Positions 1 to 16,262 of a stretch of DNA of 64,000 nt are shown in pieces. The position numbers were made by a program, and so were the translations under genes. Each line of letters begins with the position of its first letter. Position 1 is the stretch's first letter. Source of the DNA: Pseudomonadota bacterium (GTDB taxonomy: Bacteria > Pseudomonadota > Alphaproteobacteria > Acetobacterales > Acetobacteraceae); contig JAJXXT010000138.1 in NCBI GenBank assembly GCA_021780935.1, positions 1-64,000 on the forward strand, written 5' to 3'. The notes beneath the pieces are model-generated. The model did not search any database, was not told the DNA's origin, and saw only the letters and a list, made by a program, of their open reading frames with translations.

Positions 1-21
1 CCCCAGACCAGGGGGCGCCGC

Positions 22-76
22 CGGCTGGGGAGGTGCTGGCTCTGGGCTACGCCCGAAGCCAGCACCTCCCCAGCCG
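22..76. repeat. perfect 20-bp inverted repeat (long stem-loop)
   Basis: Bases 22-41 and 57-76 are exact reverse complements. The 15-bp loop contains a further GGGC/GCCC stem at 44-47 and 51-54, so the whole element can fold into one long hairpin. It lies about 40 bp before the first codon still open for the truncated Argonaute partner. It has no T-tract, so it is not a typical intrinsic terminator. It could be a REP-like palindrome or the end of a mobile element. What lies further left is outside the window. Confidence 0.7.
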
Positions 77-113
77 CATTCTCATCCTGATTGACGCGGG
101 ATTCTCAAGTTGA

Positions 114-419
114 TTGTCGCGCTACAGGCTCCGTCGGTCATTCGCAAAGACGTGGCGCAATCCGCGATGGCGGGACATGCTGCTGGCATTCCTCTACTGG
201 ATCGCGGAGGGCCAATCAGAATTGCTTTCGGCAGTCAGCAGCGAAGAGAACATCACCTTGGCGTTACCGCCGGTGACGTGGATGGCGCCAGTGAGCGTGC
301 CGCTCGACGCCGAGTCACCGGAGATAGATGATGACGACCCGAGCGATGACGACGAAATCTACGAATACGAAGAGGACGCCGCGATCGCGCCGTCGGACGA
401 CGGTGCCTATGAGCCGTAG
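114..419 (+). pseudogene. remnant of the Argonaute partner gene (probable APAZ-protein C-terminus)
   Basis: A 101-aa reading frame opens with TTG at 114 and ends at 417-419, overlapping the Argonaute start by 11 bases, which implies translational coupling. All three frames are closed just upstream (stops at 88-90, 92-94 and 111-113), so no longer protein can run into it. The first 65 residues (basic start, a WRNPRWRDMLLAFLYW-type stretch, then LPPVTWMAPVSV) resemble the end of an APAZ domain. The last 35 residues are very acidic. In short-Argonaute systems the gene at this place encodes a SIR2-, TIR- or nuclease-APAZ effector of several hundred residues. I infer that this is its 3' remnant, but a free-standing small protein is possible. 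Confidence 0.5.
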
Positions 420-1965
420 GGTTTTCGAGCCGTATGTCAGCTACATTCCAGAGCCGGAACTGGAGTTTCGCTATGGTCAGCGGCTCGCTTATCCGCGGGA
501 TGGGCTGTTCCTCTACGGCCCCGTCGGCGACGTCAATCAACTTCGATCGATTCGATACGGCGTCATTGGCACGCCGGAAGGCGTGCGGCGCTTTCGAGCT
601 TGGTCGAGCAAGCTGCGAGGCTTCATCGATGTTCCATCGCCGGGGTTGCGCTCCCGAGCCGTGGAGCCGCAGCATGTCCCATTTCCTGGGTTTGCCGAAG
701 CGTTCCACGCCGAATGGCCCGTAGAGCCGACGGCGCTTGTGGCAGACCTCGATCCGGATCTGATCCATCGATCGTTGCACGTCGCCAACCGCCATGAGGC
801 GGTCCGCGCGACCGTGGATTTGTTCGTGAGCCGTCTGGTCATCGAGAATAACCGGCTCGAGAACCCGCCTGCTCTCTGGTTCGTCATTATCCCCGAAGCC
901 ATTTATGAGCTCGGGCGGCCCCGGTCCTCGGTTCGCAAGGCCGAGCGGATCGAAGGAGTGGTTTCGATCAGTCAGCGTCGTGCGCGACAGTTACAAGTGC
1001 AACCAACCTTGTTTGGCGACGACGAGCGTGAGGCGGAGGTCTACCAATATGCCACCCATTTTCGGCGTCAGCTGAAGGCGCGCCTCCTAAAAGAGCGGAT
1101 CGTCACCCAGATCGTGCGCGAGACTACACTGACGCCGGAGGAGTTCCGGCGAGACAACGGAATGCCTATGCGGCGTGTTGAGGATGCCGCCACGATCGCT
1201 TGGAAGCTCGGGACTGGCGCTTACTACAAGGCCGGCGGCAAACCATGGCAGTTAGCCGACGTGAGGCCGGGCGTCTGTTATGTCGGTCTTGTCTACAAGC
1301 GCAGCGAACTGACCAGCGATAAGCGGCACGCCTGCTGCGCCGCTCAGATGTTTCTATCCGATGGGGAAGGCGTCGTCTTTCGCGGTGCGCTTGGGCCTTG
1401 GTTCCAAACAGACACCAAGCAATTCCACCTAGATAAAGTTGCTGCGAAGTCGCTGATCGAGATGGTGGTCGGCGAATACTCAAGGCTCCACGGCACCCCT
1501 CCTCGTGAGTTATTTATTCATGCCAAGTCAGCGTTCACCGATATCGAGTGGGAGGGATTCAGCGCAGCGTGTTGTGAGGAAACCAATCTCGTCGGCGTCC
1601 AGATTGCCGAGGCCAGGGATGATCTCAAGCTGTTCCGTCCAGGAAATTACCCTGTGATTAGAGGAACTGCGCTGCATGTTGGCGATCGACACGCATATTT
1701 GTGGACGTCCGGCTACGCGCCAAGGCTGGATACCTACATGGGACCGGAGACGCCGAATCCGATCTCAGTTAAGGTGCTGCGGGGTGACTGCCCGATTGGA
1801 ACGGTGCTCGGCGATGTGCTTGGCCTGACAAAGATCAACTTCAACTCGTGCCTGCACAATGATCGATTGCCAGTGACTATCAGATTTGCCAACGCTGTGG
1901 GCGATGTTCTCATTTCGGCACCGATGGACGGGGAGCCCAAGTTGCCGTTCAAGTTCTACATTTGA
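409..1965 (+). CDS. short prokaryotic Argonaute (MID-PIWI protein)
   Basis: A 518-aa protein with the length and layout of short pAgos: no PAZ or N domain, a MID domain (roughly residues 40-260) and a PIWI domain (roughly 265-518). Recognisable family blocks are YGVIGTPEGVRRFRAW (50-65), AYYKAGGKPW (271-280), YVGLVYK (291-297), CCAAQMFL with GEGVVFRGALGPW (309-331) and the terminal LPFKFYI. The first PIWI catalytic Asp position falls in YVGLVYK and has no Asp, so the domain should bind but not cut, as in all short pAgos. Family members bind a guide RNA and target DNA and trigger an attached effector (NADase or nuclease) that kills or stalls the infected cell. I chose ATG 409 because it overlaps the upstream stop; an in-frame ATG at 328 would give an odd Thr/Arg-rich extension. 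Base composition is clearly less GC-rich than the chromosome to the right. Confidence 0.9.
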   Translation: MSRRVFEPYVSYIPEPELEFRYGQRLAYPRDGLFLYGPVGDVNQLRSIRYGVIGTPEGVRRFRAWSSKLRGFIDVPSPGLRSRAVEPQHVPFPGFAEAFHAEWPVEPTALVADLDPDLIHRSLHVANRHEAVRATVDLFVSRLVIENNRLENPPALWFVIIPEAIYELGRPRSSVRKAERIEGVVSISQRRARQLQVQPTLFGDDEREAEVYQYATHFRRQLKARLLKERIVTQIVRETTLTPEEFRRDNGMPMRRVEDAATIAWKLGTGAYYKAGGKPWQLADVRPGVCYVGLVYKRSELTSDKRHACCAAQMFLSDGEGVVFRGALGPWFQTDTKQFHLDKVAAKSLIEMVVGEYSRLHGTPPRELFIHAKSAFTDIEWEGFSAACCEETNLVGVQIAEARDDLKLFRPGNYPVIRGTALHVGDRHAYLWTSGYAPRLDTYMGPETPNPISVKVLRGDCPIGTVLGDVLGLTKINFNSCLHNDRLPVTIRFANAVGDVLISAPMDGEPKLPFKFYI

Positions 1966-2027
1966 GACCTTCGCAGCGAGATCTTGGCGTTAAGCCGCTC
2001 GGTGAAAAGTCTTCTGCTTCTCGGGGT

Positions 2028-2354
<327 letters not shown>

Positions 2355-2396
2355 GCCTTCGGAGGGCAACGCTCTATCCAGCTGAGCTACGGGTCC
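2355..2396 (-). repeat. 5' half of a tRNA-Arg(CCG) gene (att-like remnant)
   Basis: Read on the minus strand this is GGACCCGTAGCTCAG and onward through the D arm and anticodon loop CTCCGAA to GGC, where similarity to a tRNA stops abruptly. It matches the intact tRNA-Arg 5' half at 38 of 41 positions (2356-2396 against 2064-2104). The acceptor strand GGACCCG differs from that of the intact tRNA, so this is a different allele and not a fresh tandem copy. The break falls in the anticodon arm, a known crossover place of tRNA-targeting integrases. I infer that the original host tRNA was split here and replaced in function by the element-borne copy. Confidence 0.7.
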
Positions 2397-2449
2397 AGAA
2401 CGCCTGCGTAGCGGAAAACGCTGCAAACCGGAAGCCCATCGGCCGATGT

Positions 2450-3439
2450 TCAGTCGAGGGCCGGATAGCGCGCCGCGAGCAGCTCGGCCGCGGCGGCCTC
2501 GCCCACCAGCTTCGCGCCAGGGTCATCCAGCCATGCGATGATGTCGCCGATCACCAGCGCGCGGTCGTGGTCGCGCAGCAAAAGGTGCCAGCCGCGGCGG
2601 AAATAGCAGAAGCGCGCCACGCCCGGCGGCACCGCGCGCCAGGCCGTCAGCATCGCCTGCTTCGGCACCAGCTCGTCATGCGCGCCATAGAGAAACAGCG
2701 CCGGCGGCGGCAGGAAGGCGGCTGCCCGCAGGGCCGCGCCCATCAGGTTCACCAGGCCGGTCACGGTGCCGAAGCGGCTGTTATGGATGGTCAGCTTGTC
2801 CTTGTAGAGCGCCTCCAGTGCCGCGCGATTGTCGCTGGCGCGGATCGGCACCGGCGGGCGGCTGGCCGAGGCCCAGGGCAGCAGATGGCTCATCACCCAC
2901 AGCCCCGCGCGCATGACCAGATTCATGTGCTGTGCGCCCCAGACGGCCGGCGCCGAGAGCACCAGCGGCGTGCCGGGCGCGAACAGGCCCCGCGCCGCGG
3001 CCACCATTGCCACCGCCCCGCCCATGCTCTCGCCCATGACCGCGAACCGGGCCGTGGGATAGCGGGCGGCAACCAGGCGGGCCATCGCCGCGGCGTCGGA
3101 GACCATGGTGTCCGTACCCGCCCACAGCCCGCGCCCGGGGGCCCCGCCAAAGCCGCGCTGGTCCGGCGCCACGATGCCGATATCCGCAGCGACGAAGCTA
3201 GGAGCGGGGATTTCCCACGCGTCCCGGCTGTCGTTGTAGCCGTGCAGTGCTAGGATCACCACGCGGGGTTGCGGCGGCATCCAGGTGCGAAAGGGCAGGG
3301 CGGCGCCGTCCGCCATGATGAAATGCCCGTCTTCGCCGGCTGGCCCGACCATCGCCGGCTCGCGGATCGGCGGGCCCATTTTCACCCGCTGCACGGCGCA
3401 GCCCGCCAGCGCGCCGGCCAGCAGCACCCGCCTCGACAT
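2450..3439 (-). CDS. alpha/beta hydrolase lipoprotein (monoacylglycerol lipase-like)
   Basis: A 329-aa serine hydrolase of the S33/lysophospholipase type. The nucleophile elbow is GESMGG with Ser138; an oxyanion motif LALHGYND (63-70), the acid in LYGAHDELVP and the His in RRGWHLLL complete the usual triad. The chosen start ATG gives a short signal with lipobox LAGC (Cys14), so the enzyme is probably membrane-anchored and faces the periplasm. A longer frame from 3502 is open but would bury the signal. It likely cleaves acyl esters of glycerides or lysophospholipids; the substrate cannot be read from sequence. It is divergent from the zinc-finger/polA pair. Confidence 0.8.
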   Translation of the reverse strand: MSRRVLLAGALAGCAVQRVKMGPPIREPAMVGPAGEDGHFIMADGAALPFRTWMPPQPRVVILALHGYNDSRDAWEIPAPSFVAADIGIVAPDQRGFGGAPGRGLWAGTDTMVSDAAAMARLVAARYPTARFAVMGESMGGAVAMVAAARGLFAPGTPLVLSAPAVWGAQHMNLVMRAGLWVMSHLLPWASASRPPVPIRASDNRAALEALYKDKLTIHNSRFGTVTGLVNLMGAALRAAAFLPPPALFLYGAHDELVPKQAMLTAWRAVPPGVARFCYFRRGWHLLLRDHDRALVIGDIIAWLDDPGAKLVGEAAAAELLAARYPALD

Positions 3440-3525
3440 GCAACCCATCCGCCCCGCTTTGGAAACCACGATACCCCGGGCTAACATGGACTCCGGTTCC
3501 ATCCCAAGAGCAGGTAGTCACCCCG

Positions 3526-3714
3526 ATGTCCGCTGCCAACGATCTCGACGAGACTGCACCGATCATCGTGCACAACCGTAGCGTGGCGTGCGACGGTGGC
3601 GACGGGCCACTCGGCCACCCCCGCGTCTGGCTGCGCATTGCCGCGCGCGAGGTGGTCTGCCCCTATTGCTCGCGCCGCTACGTGCTCGAAGGCGAGGGGG
3701 ACGACGGGCATTGA
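3526..3714 (+). CDS. zinc-finger (CHCC) domain protein
   Basis: A 62-aa protein with the CHCC zinc-finger pattern: CDGG (22-25), GHPRVWL with the His (30-36), and VCPYCSRRYVL near the end providing two Cys. It resembles the zinc-binding part of the mitochondrial complex I subunit NDUFS6. Small stand-alone forms like this are common in alphaproteobacteria; a link to complex I is inference. It ends about 10 bases before the polA start, so the two are probably co-transcribed. Confidence 0.85.
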   Translation: MSAANDLDETAPIIVHNRSVACDGGDGPLGHPRVWLRIAAREVVCPYCSRRYVLEGEGDDGH

Positions 3715-3724
3715 GGCCACGGCC

Positions 3725-6490
3725 TTGAGCGTGGGGCCGAAGCTCGTCCTGGTTGACGGCTCGGGGTTCATCTTCCGCGCCTTCCACGCCCTGCCGCCGA
3801 TGACGCGGCCGGACGGAACGCCGGTCAACGCCGTGTTCGGCTTCACCAACATGCTCACCCGCCTGGTGCGCGAGCACGCCGGCACGCATTTGGCCGTGAT
3901 CTTCGACGCCGGGCGGTATACGTTCCGTAACCGGCTCTATCCCGCCTACAAGGCGCAGCGGCCGGAGCCGCCGGAGGAGCTGCGCCCGCAATTCGCCCTG
4001 GTGCGCGAGGCGACACGCGCCTTCGGCCTGCCGGCGATTGAGGTGGCGGACTGGGAGGCGGACGATCTCATCGCGGCCTATGCCAGAGCGGCGGTGGAGG
4101 CGGGGGGCGAGGCGCTGATCGTGTCCTCCGACAAGGACCTGATGCAGCTCATCCGCCCCGGTGTGGCGATGCAGGACCCGCTGAAGCAGAAGCCGATCGG
4201 GCCCGCCGAGGTGATGGAGAAATTCGGCGTGCCGCCCGAAAAGCTGGTCGAGGCGCAGGCGCTGATGGGCGACGCGGTGGACAACGTGCCCGGCGTGAAG
4301 GGCATCGGCCCCAAGGGGGCGGCCAAGCTGATCGCGGAGTTCGGCGATCTCGAAGCCATTCTCGCCGCCGCGCCCACGATGAAACCCTCGAAGCAGCGCG
4401 ACGCCCTGATCGAGCATGCCGAGGATGCGCGCATCTCCCGCGAACTGGTCACGCTGCGCGCCGACGCGCCGCTGCCGATGCCGATCGAGGCGCTTGCGGC
4501 GCGCGAGCCGGATGGTGCCGCGCTCGCGGCCTTCCTCACGGCCCAGGGGTTCCGCAGCACGCTGGCCCGGCTTGGCCTCGAGGCCCCGGACGCGGCCAGC
4601 CCCGTCAGCACCCCATCGGGCGCAGCACCCAGCGGACGCCAGCCGAGCCTCGATCTTGCGCCTTCGGTGCCGCCGGCTGCCGCGGACGGTTTTGGTCCTT
4701 ACGAAACCGTCACGACCGAGGCGGGGCTTGCGGCGTGGGTCGCCGAGGCACGGGCCGCCGGCGTGGTGGCGCTCGATACCGAAACGGACGGGCTCGATGC
4801 GCTGCAGGCGAGCCTCACCGGCTTCTCGCTCGGCGTGGCGCCGGGGCGGGCGTGCTATGTGCCGCTGCGCCACGCGGCGGGTGGGCAATTGGCGCCGGAG
4901 ACGGCACTGGCGCTGCTGGCCCCCCTGCTCGCGGATGTCTCGGTGCTGAAGGTGCTGCAGAACGCCAAGTTCGACATGGCCGTCTTCGCACGTGCCGATA
5001 TCGAAACGATCGCGCCGATCGACGACACGATGCTGATCTCCTTCGTGATGGAGGCCGGCGCGCACGGGCATGGCATGGACGAGCTTTCCTCGCTGCATCT
5101 CGGCCACGCGCCCATCGCCTATGACAGCGTGACCGGCACCGGGCGCAACCGGATTGCGTTCGCCGAGGTGCCGCTCGACCGCGCCACCGCCTATGCCGCG
5201 GAGGATGCGGATGTCACGCTGCGGCTGTGGCAGGTGCTGCGCCCGCGCCTGCGCGAGGCCCGCGCGCTCGACCTCTATGAGAGTGTGGAGCGCCGCCTGA
5301 TCCCGGTGCTGCTCGCCATGGAGCGTGCCGGCATCACGGTGGACGCCGACGATCTGCGCGCCATGAGCAAGGATTTCGCCGCGCGCATGGCGGTGATGGA
5401 GCAGGACATTCACCGTCTCGCCGGCGAGGCCTTCAACGTCGCCAGCGCCAAGCAGCTCGGCGAAATCCTGTTCGACCGCATGGGCCTGCCTGGCGGCAAG
5501 CGGATGAAGACCGGCGCCTGGGGCACCGATGCCTCGGTGCTGCAGGGGCTCGCCGAGCAGGGTCACGACCTGCCGGCGCGTGTCCTTGAATGGCGGCAGC
5601 TCGCCAAGCTGAAATCGACCTATGCCGACGCGCTGGTCGACCAGATCAACCCCGAGACCGGGCGTGTGCACACCAGCTACGCCATGGCGATCGCGAGCAC
5701 CGGGCGGCTGTCCTCGACCGATCCCAACCTGCAGAACATCCCCGTCCGGACCGAGGAGGGCACGCGCATCCGCCGCGCCTTCATCGCGCCACCGGGTTCG
5801 GTGCTGGTCAGCGCCGATTATTCGCAGATCGAGCTGCGGCTGCTCGCGCACGTGGCGGAGATCTCGGCACTCAAGGAAAGCTTCGCCAACGGCGAGGACA
5901 TTCACGCCCGCACCGCGAGCGAGGTGTTCGGCGTGCCGATGGCGGGCATGGACGCCATGACGCGGCGGCGCGCAAAGGCGATCAATTTCGGCATCATCTA
6001 CGGCATCAGCGCCTTCGGCCTCGGCCGCCAGCTCGGCATCGAGCCCGGCGAGGCGCGCGCCTATATCGAGGCGTATTTCAAGCGCTATCCCGGTATCCGC
6101 ACCTACATGGACAGGGCCCGCCGGGAAGCGCGAGAGCTTGGTTACGTGCTCACCCCGTTCGGGCGGCGCTGCTGGATCCCTGGCATCGCCGACAAGAACC
6201 CAGCACGCCGCGCCTATGCCGAGCGCCAGGCGATCAACGCGCCGCTGCAGGGCGGGGCTGCCGACATCATCAAGCGCGCCATGGTGAAACTCCCGCGTGC
6301 GCTGCGTGAGGCGGGGCTGCAATCGCGCATGTTGTTACAGGTGCATGACGAATTGCTGTTCGAGGCACCGGAGCGCGAGGCCGGCACGCTCGCTTCCCTG
6401 GCGCGCGAGGTGATGGAGCAGGCAGCGACACTGTCGGTGCCCCTCGTCGTCGAGACCGGCCAAGGCCGCAACTGGGCCGAGGCGCATTGA
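3725..6490 (+). CDS. polA: DNA polymerase I
   Basis: A 921-aa enzyme with all three classical parts. The 5'-3' exonuclease (1 to about 290) starts KLVLVDGSGFIFRAFHAL and has the helix-hairpin-helix GVKGIGPKGAAKL. The 3'-5' exonuclease (about 330-530) retains DTETDGL near residue 350, so proofreading should be active. The polymerase domain has motif A SADYSQIELR (about 696) and motif C QVHDE (about 872). It fills gaps in repair and replaces RNA primers. The start is TTG 3725 with GAGG 9 bases upstream; GTG 3731 is the alternative. Earlier in-frame ATGs overlap the zinc-finger gene and give a low-complexity leader. Confidence 0.95.
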   Translation: MSVGPKLVLVDGSGFIFRAFHALPPMTRPDGTPVNAVFGFTNMLTRLVREHAGTHLAVIFDAGRYTFRNRLYPAYKAQRPEPPEELRPQFALVREATRAFGLPAIEVADWEADDLIAAYARAAVEAGGEALIVSSDKDLMQLIRPGVAMQDPLKQKPIGPAEVMEKFGVPPEKLVEAQALMGDAVDNVPGVKGIGPKGAAKLIAEFGDLEAILAAAPTMKPSKQRDALIEHAEDARISRELVTLRADAPLPMPIEALAAREPDGAALAAFLTAQGFRSTLARLGLEAPDAASPVSTPSGAAPSGRQPSLDLAPSVPPAAADGFGPYETVTTEAGLAAWVAEARAAGVVALDTETDGLDALQASLTGFSLGVAPGRACYVPLRHAAGGQLAPETALALLAPLLADVSVLKVLQNAKFDMAVFARADIETIAPIDDTMLISFVMEAGAHGHGMDELSSLHLGHAPIAYDSVTGTGRNRIAFAEVPLDRATAYAAEDADVTLRLWQVLRPRLREARALDLYESVERRLIPVLLAMERAGITVDADDLRAMSKDFAARMAVMEQDIHRLAGEAFNVASAKQLGEILFDRMGLPGGKRMKTGAWGTDASVLQGLAEQGHDLPARVLEWRQLAKLKSTYADALVDQINPETGRVHTSYAMAIASTGRLSSTDPNLQNIPVRTEEGTRIRRAFIAPPGSVLVSADYSQIELRLLAHVAEISALKESFANGEDIHARTASEVFGVPMAGMDAMTRRRAKAINFGIIYGISAFGLGRQLGIEPGEARAYIEAYFKRYPGIRTYMDRARREARELGYVLTPFGRRCWIPGIADKNPARRAYAERQAINAPLQGGAADIIKRAMVKLPRALREAGLQSRMLLQVHDELLFEAPEREAGTLASLAREVMEQAATLSVPLVVETGQGRNWAEAH

Positions 6491-6523
6491 CGCCGCGGGC
6501 GTGCAGCCCACCGGACGAAGAAA

Positions 6524-7369
6524 CTACCAGGTGAAGCTCGGCACCGTCGCGACCGGCGACAGGCCTGCCTCGCGCGCCGCGGCCTCGAGCTTCGCGGGGT
6601 CGGTCCCAAGTTCCTCGAAATGGATGCCGCCGAGCACCCAGCATGCGTCGAGCCCGGCGGCCGCGGCGCCGGCGACGTCGGTGCGCAGTGCATCGCCCAC
6701 CGCCAGCACGCGCGGCACGCCGAGCGCCGCCAGCACCAGGGGATAGACCGCGGGGTCGGGCTTGCCGATGTAGCGCACTGCCCCGCCCAGCGCCTCGTAG
6801 CGCCGGCCGAGGGCACCCGCGCAGAGCACGCGCTTGCCGTCGCGGATCACCTCGAGGTCGGGGTTGGCGCAGATCATTGGCAGATGGCGCGCCGCACAGG
6901 CGGCAAGCGTGGCCTCGTAGGGCCCAAGCTCCGTCACGCCGAGCGCGTCGTCGGGGCCGGTGTTGACGACGAAGCTGGCCGCCGCCGGATCGCTCACCCG
7001 CGTGAGCGGCAGGTCCTCGATCACCGAGAGGTCGCGCGGCGGGCCGAGATGGAACACGCGCTCGCCGAGCGAGCGCAGCCAGGCATCCGGCCGGTCGCGC
7101 AGCGCCTGCCAGGTGGCCTCGCCGCTGGTCAGGATTGCGTCGTAGAGGTCATCGGCGATGCCCATCGCGCGCATCGCCGCCTGGATCACGTGGTTGCGCC
7201 GCGGCCCGTTGGAGAGCAGTGCGCGGCGCTTGCCCGCCTTTCCCATCCGCGCCAGACAGTCCACCGCGCCGGGATAGGGCCGCACGCCGTCATGGATCAC
7301 GCCCCAGAGGTCGAGGATGAAGCCGTCATAGCGCGCGGCGAGCGGCGCCATGCTGTCGAGATGTTCCAT
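6524..7369 (-). CDS. HAD-family phosphatase, TIGR01459 type
   Basis: A 281-aa class IIA HAD hydrolase. Motif I is varied: FILDLWGVIHDG (18-29), with the nucleophile Asp20 and the paired position replaced by Trp-Gly as is typical of this subgroup. LLSNGPRR carries the motif II Ser/Asn, and the C-terminal motif GKPDPAVYPL to AVGDALRTDVAGAAAAG supplies Lys and acidic Mg ligands. Members are probably sugar-phosphate or nucleotide phosphatases; the true substrate is not known. It starts 2 bases after pyrD ends and is presumably co-transcribed with it. Confidence 0.85.
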   Translation of the reverse strand: MEHLDSMAPLAARYDGFILDLWGVIHDGVRPYPGAVDCLARMGKAGKRRALLSNGPRRNHVIQAAMRAMGIADDLYDAILTSGEATWQALRDRPDAWLRSLGERVFHLGPPRDLSVIEDLPLTRVSDPAAASFVVNTGPDDALGVTELGPYEATLAACAARHLPMICANPDLEVIRDGKRVLCAGALGRRYEALGGAVRYIGKPDPAVYPLVLAALGVPRVLAVGDALRTDVAGAAAAGLDACWVLGGIHFEELGTDPAKLEAAAREAGLSPVATVPSFTW

Positions 7370-7371
7370 GG

Positions 7372-8397
7372 TTACAATTCCGTTCCGATTGCCGAGGCCG
7401 CGTCGGGCAGCCTCGCCTGGTCCAGTGCCACGAGCAATTCCCGTTTGAGGCGCGGGATCAGCGCCGGCCCCGCATAGGCGAAGGCGCTATAGACCTGCAC
7501 CGCCGAGGCGCCGAGCCGCAGCCGGTCCAGCACATCCGCCCCCGTCGCGATGCCGCCGGCCGCGATCAGGGCGAGCCTTCCCGCCGCCCGCCGCGCCACC
7601 ACGCCCAGCGCCGCGCGCGCGAGCGGGGCCAGCGGCGCGCCCGACAATCCTCCCGCCTCTGCCGCGTGCGGCGAGCGCAGACCGGGCGGGCGGGCGAGGG
7701 TCGTGTTGGTGACGATGATCCCCGCCGCGCCGGCCGCGATCGCGACCTCGGTTGCCGCCTCCAGCCCCGCCGGTGCCAGGTCCGGTGCCAGCTTGACGAA
7801 AAGCGGTGGCCGCACCGGGGGAATCGCCGCGAGGATGGCGGCCAACCGCGCCTCGCCCTGCAGGTCGCGCAGCCCCGGCGTGTTCGGCGAGGACACGTTG
7901 ATCACCACATAATCCGCGTGCGGCGAAACCGCGGCGAGCATCGCGGGGTAGTCACGCTCCGGGTCCGCATCCTGCTTGTTGATGCCGAGATTGGCGCCGA
8001 CCGGCACGTCGCGCGGGCGGAACGCGGCGAGGCGCTGGGTGAAGGCGGCGATGCCCGCGTTGTTGAAGCCCATGCGGTTGATCACCGCCTCGTCCTCGGC
8101 GAGGCGAAACAGGCGCGGGCGCGGGTTGCCCGGCTGTGGCCGCGGCGTGACCGTCCCCGCCTCCAGAAATCCGAAACCCAGCGCCGCGAGGCCGCGCAGG
8201 GCCGCCGCGTTCTTGTCGAAGCCGGCGGCGATGCCGATCGGGTTTTTGACCATGCGCCCGAACAGCGGCACAGCGAGGCGCTTGTCGTCCGGCGTGCGGT
8301 CGTGGCCCGCGAAGCCCGCGCGCAGGGCCAGCAACGCGTAGTGGTGGGCGCGTTCCGGCTCCATCCCGCGAAGTATGGTCATCACGAAATCGCGCAT
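7372..8397 (-). CDS. pyrD: dihydroorotate dehydrogenase (quinone), class 2
   Basis: A 341-aa enzyme, the normal size for class 2. It oxidises dihydroorotate to orotate with FMN and passes electrons to quinone at the inner membrane, the fourth step of pyrimidine synthesis. Visible blocks are NPIGIAAGFDKNA, GFLEAGTVTPRPQPGNPRPR, VGANLGINK, the active region YVVINVSSPNTPGLR (with Ser), KLAPDL and IIVTNTT, then GGIATGADVLDRL near the C-terminus. ATG 8397 begins MRDFVMTILRGM, the expected amphipathic membrane helix; the long upstream extension of the open frame is low-complexity and discarded. Confidence 0.95.
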   Translation of the reverse strand: MRDFVMTILRGMEPERAHHYALLALRAGFAGHDRTPDDKRLAVPLFGRMVKNPIGIAAGFDKNAAALRGLAALGFGFLEAGTVTPRPQPGNPRPRLFRLAEDEAVINRMGFNNAGIAAFTQRLAAFRPRDVPVGANLGINKQDADPERDYPAMLAAVSPHADYVVINVSSPNTPGLRDLQGEARLAAILAAIPPVRPPLFVKLAPDLAPAGLEAATEVAIAAGAAGIIVTNTTLARPPGLRSPHAAEAGGLSGAPLAPLARAALGVVARRAAGRLALIAAGGIATGADVLDRLRLGASAVQVYSAFAYAGPALIPRLKRELLVALDQARLPDAASAIGTEL

Positions 8398-14473: not shown

Positions 14474-14529
14474 GCGCCACGCCCATTGAACCCGGCCGCC
14501 GCTTCCGTCATACATGTGGGGTTCGGATC

Positions 14530-14732
14530 ATCCCTCGCGGGAGAGAGCGGCCTCGCCGCCGCCGAAGGCGCAACCGGCCCCCGGAAACGCTCAGGCAAAA
14601 GGACCGCGGCAGGGACGCGAATCTCTGGAAAGCCGCCGCGGCATGCGCGCCGCGTCGCACCGACGGAGTAAGGGCGCCGCCTATCGATCGGCACCTGAAT
14701 CTCTCAGGTCCTCGGACAGAGGGGGGTCGTTT
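14530..14732 (+). promoter_or_regulatory. tandem glycine riboswitch (gcvT element)
   Basis: Two glycine aptamers in series. The first spans about 14535-14631, with CGGGAGAG opening, GCCGAAGGCGCAA, the conserved AAACGCTCAGGCAAAAGGACCG and closing CTCTGGA. The second spans about 14650-14726, with CACCGACGGAGTAAG, AATCTCTCAGGTCC and GGACAGAGGGG. It lies 45 bases before gcvT, where glycine binding turns on the cleavage operon. The switch may act on translation because the gcvT ribosome site follows closely and no terminator with a T-tract is visible. Confidence 0.92.
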
Positions 14733-15884: not shown

Positions 15885-16262
15885 ATGTCCGAGACCCGCT
15901 ATACCCAGGATCACGAATGGGTCCGCCTCGAGGACGGCATCGCGACGGTGGGGATCACCGTGCATGCCCAGGAATCGCTGGGCGATCTGGTGTTCGTCGA
16001 GCTGCCGGCGCCGGGGCGCGAGGTCACGGCGGCGGAGGCCTGCGCGGTGGTCGAGAGCGTGAAGGCTGCCTCCGACGTCTATGCGCCGCTCACCGGCAAG
16101 GTCGTCGAGCACAACGCGGCGCTGGCCGAGGACCCGGCGCTGGCCAACCGCGATGCGGAAGGCGAGGGCTGGTTCTTCCGCCTCGTGCCCGCCGACGCCG
16201 CGGCCTTCGCCGGCCTGATGGACCGTGCCGCCTATGATGCTTTCGTCGCGGAGCACAGCTGA
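15885..16262 (+). CDS. gcvH: glycine cleavage system H protein
   Basis: 125 aa, the lipoyl carrier that shuttles the aminomethyl group between P, T and L proteins. The lipoylation motif is [14 protein letters not shown] with Lys60. The start [13 protein letters not shown] is typical. It sits 12 bases after gcvT and its stop shares a base with the gcvP start. Confidence 0.96.

Follow-up and report, generated by a model that had tools for sequence, protein, structure and literature searches.

The window (the whole 64,000-nucleotide stretch of DNA analysed) encodes, near its left edge and on the plus strand, an intact 518-aa short pAgo of the MID-PIWI, SPARTA type (409-1965), whose gene overlaps by 11 bases the remnant of a TIR-APAZ gene. 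The remnant in turn abuts what appears to be one end of an IS21-family element. The conserved pAgo start is ATG 409, and the frame ends at 1965. In profile searches, PADLOC pAgo_I matched residues 10-518 (3e-205), and five SPARTA-type Argonautes of known structure matched residues 11-518 at 1e-122 to 5e-121. A total of 4207 proteins reached E ≤ 0.001 among the 7997 candidates scored with the pAgo, and the nearest of those scored is P0001, with 7 differences in 518 residues. The available excerpt of PMC11156904 gives V284, Y328, R362, and N484 as the residues at the catalytic positions of its solved pAgo. Here these four positions are occupied by V295, F339, K373, and N495, as counted by hand in an alignment with u145838, which is probably the protein of that paper given the fit of the four residues. 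The protein is thus of the short MID-PIWI type, with a PIWI domain lacking the catalytic acidic residues. The initial annotation, which had described a 518-aa short pAgo without the catalytic Asp at this position, was borne out by the ORF, by the pAgo_I and SPARTA Argonaute matches, and by the four substituted residues. A viral origin of the pAgo was considered and rejected, as 23 viral_contigs stretches fit a pattern in one scan and none was confirmed as a relative.

The TIR-APAZ remnant (127-419, plus strand), recognized by profile, PDB, and blastn matches, comprises the APAZ-L2 region and an acidic C-terminal tail. It corresponds to positions 360-437 of the 443-position PADLOC TIR-APAZ profile (1.5e-20), and to residues 361-439 of the PDB TIR-APAZ chain 8ifk_A (1.7e-7), so the window does not contain the co-encoded full-length TIR-APAZ of a SPARTA system. 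APAZ-L2 is placed at residues 353-450 of the solved TIR-APAZ protein in the excerpt of PMC11156904, from which the missing parts would be the TIR, the connector, APAZ-N, and APAZ-L1; none of these four was found in the window. Compared with the solved SPARTA complexes (8ifk, 8fex, and 8qlo), the pAgo is clearly alike (matches at ~1e-122) and the remnant matches the TIR-APAZ C-terminus, whereas the four upstream parts are lacking and the frame opens in the IS end. A 495-aa TIR-APAZ protein (P0170) is 92% identical to the remnant over 64 residues. TIR_2 and TIR-APAZ profiles match both this protein and the partner encoded at the related locus L001 (described below), the TIR-APAZ profiles over nearly their full length.

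The first 126 bases of the window match the istA-side ends of plasmid IS21 elements, and their terminal sequences are of the IS21 kind. Positions 13-122 are 84-88% identical to four annotated IS21 ends adjoining istA, three from the Acidiphilium cryptum JF-5 plasmids pACRY01-03 (L086-L088) and one from an Acidithiobacillus plasmid (L089), and positions 79-126 are 83% identical to the opposite, inverted ends of the same elements. The terminal repeat (112-126) agrees at 15 of 15 bases with the reverse complement of the L086 istB-side terminus, TGTAGCGCGACAATC. The last few bases of the istA-side ends of L086-L088 read GCGCGATA or GCGCGACA and differ from those of the window, GCGCTACA, which leaves an uncertainty of about 2 bases in the outer IS boundary at 126. 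The A. cryptum elements thus share with the window the istA-side end, the terminal repeat, and a stem-loop (see below), and differ from it in these last bases and in that the window holds only 126 bases of the element. The element appears to be of the IS21 family, an assignment made from this one 126-base end, and its istA and istB would be expected to the left of base 1 on the minus strand. The left junction, with the second IS end and any target-site duplication, would likewise fall outside the window. No second copy of its istA or istB was detected in the window, where the only matches were at E 0.36 or worse.

When positions 1-135 were used as the query, 180 plasmid records matched at E up to 1, and four of them covered at least 80% of the query. 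We examined eight matches, the four strong ones (L086-L089) and four weaker ones (L090-L093), and six of them (L086-L090 and L092) adjoin istA, on its outer side, in an annotated IS21 element. The match in L091 lies in a stretch without annotated istA, and in L093 some 720 bases separate the match from istA, which is on the opposite side. The L086 IstB matches Pfam IstB_IS21 at 8.5e-61; the L086 IstA is named by its record annotation, because its 25.4 bits fall under the Pfam cut-off of 27. An IS200/IS605 element with TnpB had been a candidate, a TnpB gene being annotated under the best plasmid match. It was dropped after the record annotation was examined, as the record has istA and istB, the match is the IS21 end, and the TnpB gene flanks the IS externally, with its annotated start overlapping the IS end.

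A stem-loop is located within the IS end, upstream of istA (22-76; 26-nt arms, 92% complementary, DNA fold z = -5.51), and is also present in L086-L089. By eye, its 20-bp stem carries three paired changes, in both arms, in L086, and one G-T pair in L088 and L089. A possible role is to protect the transposase gene against transcription entering from outside. Three viral stretches have the exact 18-nt stem sequence, and in one of them (L085) the match is confined to 19-20 bases.

The homology to the IS (up to 126) and that to APAZ (from 124-129) meet with no gap between them. In blastn comparisons, homology starts at base 124 in the best three TIR-APAZ loci (L001, L004, and L081); for the ten ranked after them, it starts at 124-132. 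The first ATG of the remnant opens an 80-aa ORF (177-419, plus strand), which is the listed protein P0121, and a 101-codon plus-strand ORF (114-419) has a TTG start inside the IS end. All three plus-strand frames are closed within the IS end, by stops at 88-90, 92-94, and 111-113. The initial annotation had correctly noted stops in all frames before the partner gene, and the 101-aa upstream gene that it described does exist as an ORF, although its start is foreign, its APAZ part is limited to 127-419, and the listed protein has 80 aa. The cause of the break differs from what it had supposed. The stop at 111-113, whose removal by resequencing it had named as a refutation, sits in the IS21 end and is no lesion within the APAZ gene; therefore, losing this stop would not give a full-length TIR-APAZ frame. 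Of the two options it had offered, decay is the one that agrees with the APAZ profile check it proposed, as the match is truncated at its N-terminus (360-437 of 443).

On the other side, the pAgo gene adjoins a tRNA-Arg(CCG) (2028-2104, minus strand). A 39-nt half copy of this tRNA (2356-2394, minus strand, 95%) lies near a change in GC content, which is 55-63% up to 2400 and 66-74% from 2401 to 8000 (400-base steps). Given this step, the Argonaute operon looks like island DNA that ends near the half copy, which is likely an integration scar, or the edge of the SPARTA-bearing island. Chromosomal genes follow beyond the half copy, including polA (within 3596-6490). A promoter scan of 1-2500 found none, with 0.7 expected in shuffled sequences, so it carries little information. 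Farther along, an ordinary glycine riboswitch aptamer (14528-14616) lies upstream of gcvP (at 16262).

A full-length counterpart is found at the same chromosomal site in the MAG SJ623 (JADZAI010000095.1; L001), where the SPARTA locus has the same order as the window, i.e., TIR-APAZ (479 aa), pAgo, tRNA-Arg(CCG), tRNA half copy, and polA. Window positions 124-2104 align with L001 at 74% identity, and the pAgo proteins are 86% identical. The two differ in that the L001 TIR-APAZ is full length and follows the terminal part of a gene for an HmaC-like ATPase (L001:1-900; PADLOC 9e-65), and other defence genes may be nearby. In both the window and L001 (L001:4311-4348), some 250 bases separate the half copy from the full tRNA. 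The PolA proteins are only 58% identical, so the L001 host is not a close relative of that of the window. The window's host is probably an alphaproteobacterium, given the synteny with L001 and the PolA matches, which came from alphaproteobacteria in all nine genomes compared.

To profile related loci, we surveyed 82 of them, i.e., 80 kept of 357 confirmed loci and 2 of 103 plasmid records, judged by ORF length alone (partner ≥ 420 aa) for any partner type, with near-duplicates included. By this measure, both partner and pAgo are full length in 69 loci. A short partner accompanies a full-length pAgo in four (L012, L035, L063, and L081), one of which (L063) may have an intact partner, its length being 410 aa against the 420-aa threshold. 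Both genes are broken in one locus (L022) and the pAgo alone in another (L032), and seven were not judged for a nearby contig edge. We claim no trend of partner loss among related loci from these counts. In L081, the Aminobacter aminovorans plasmid pAA04, the TIR-APAZ is split by frame changes (L081:3563-4960), and its neighbours are an intact pAgo and a HamA gene of Hachiman; the breaks could be sequencing errors or mark a second broken SPARTA. By eye, a contig of an 'Acidimicrobiaceae' MAG (L005) and a plasmid of Indioceanicola profundi (L082) apparently carry the same TIR-APAZ, which raises the possibility that the MAG contig is a plasmid binned in error.

A search with the remnant ORF returned 23 short proteins among 27 candidates, the window's own included, all of them short by design because candidates were restricted to 0.55-1.75 times the query length. 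The 14 that were inspected, among them the Aminobacter piece (P0143), look like pieces of TIR-APAZ, and five of these start at one internal Met (MHRLRR) of the full-length protein, as a gene caller would start on a cut gene. The idea of a stand-alone 100-aa family was therefore dropped. This is also the outcome of the check for such a family that had been suggested with the initial annotation, and its alternative, a small acidic partner working with the pAgo in a so far undescribed way, finds no support among related loci, given the number that keep a full-length partner and pAgo.

Taken together, the IS21 end (1-126), the adjoining APAZ-L2 remnant (127-419), the intact pAgo, and the full-length locus in L001 indicate that a SPARTA operon beside tRNA-Arg(CCG) was very probably broken by an IS21-family insertion in the last quarter of its TIR-APAZ gene. 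Judged from the sequence, the cause of the break is a mobile element, neither a point mutation nor a new partner, and a deletion next to the IS, or an assembly join within the IS repeat, would look identical from this side. The locus appears to be a known system of which this copy is simply broken, with the small partner being a leftover gene tail.

A two-protein system of the pAgo and a small acidic partner, i.e., the APAZ-L2 fragment, perhaps acting as an effectorless guide-directed DNA binder, is highly improbable. In its favour, the remnant frame runs uninterrupted to its stop codon and still overlaps the pAgo by 11 bases, as in L001, and one of the short proteins (P0130, 99 aa) comes from a contig of 240,929 bases. 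APAZ-L2 also bears helix alphaN, by which, according to the excerpt of PMC11156904, apo SPARTA is kept from binding its target, so the loose remnant tail could still touch the pAgo. However, the frame begins in the IS end, with a start that is either IS-derived (TTG 114) or internal (ATG 177), partner and pAgo are both full length in 69 of the 82 surveyed loci, and four of the five backbone-contacting APAZ residues named in that excerpt lie in APAZ-N/L1 and only one in L2. Also highly improbable is that the pAgo is still made and acts together with the 80-aa remnant, whether to bind DNA under guide direction without an effector or to decoy intact SPARTA complexes.

The break could also have arisen in assembly, if the contig was joined through an IS21 repeat and the strain has a full-length TIR-APAZ here. 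Repeats are common assembly break points, the window starts inside one, and close full-length alleles exist (P0170). The junction nevertheless falls at the IS terminus, where a true insertion would place it, rather than somewhere arbitrary within the repeat, and the 80-aa ORF occurs in two contigs, which are perhaps not independent. From the listing of this ORF on contigs of up to 117,932 bases, the window probably starts at or near a contig end. We consider such an artefact very unlikely.

Under the insertion scenario, an island of apparent alphaproteobacterial type beside tRNA-Arg(CCG) would have carried the SPARTA operon until an IS21-family element split the TIR-APAZ gene in its final quarter. 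The remaining part of TIR-APAZ would then be on the far side of the IS, unless it was lost together with the IS insertion, and the operon promoter would no longer reach the pAgo directly. As described in the excerpt of PMC11156904, the pAgo and APAZ of SPARTA bind guide RNA and target DNA, and four complexes unite their TIRs for NAD(P) degradation. A pAgo without TIR, APAZ-N, and APAZ-L1 should be unable to assemble this NAD(P)-degrading tetramer, and abortive immunity would thereby be lost. That the pAgo frame is intact may reflect a recent insertion, or the absence of any cost in keeping it.

Among the literature matches listed, as judged from titles and abstract openings, we found no published case of a short pAgo/APAZ locus cut by an IS. 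L001, whose orthologous locus is full length and occupies the same chromosomal site, provides a comparison for the IS-broken operon, and what could have become a claim of a new small partner is settled as transposon damage. In the organism, the pAgo is probably left without an effector and confers no NAD-depleting immunity, and the locus is most likely a dead system with an orphan pAgo that would be transcribed weakly, if at all. It would be one example of a defence operon deprived by an IS of its toxic subunit, with the gene of the sensor still open.
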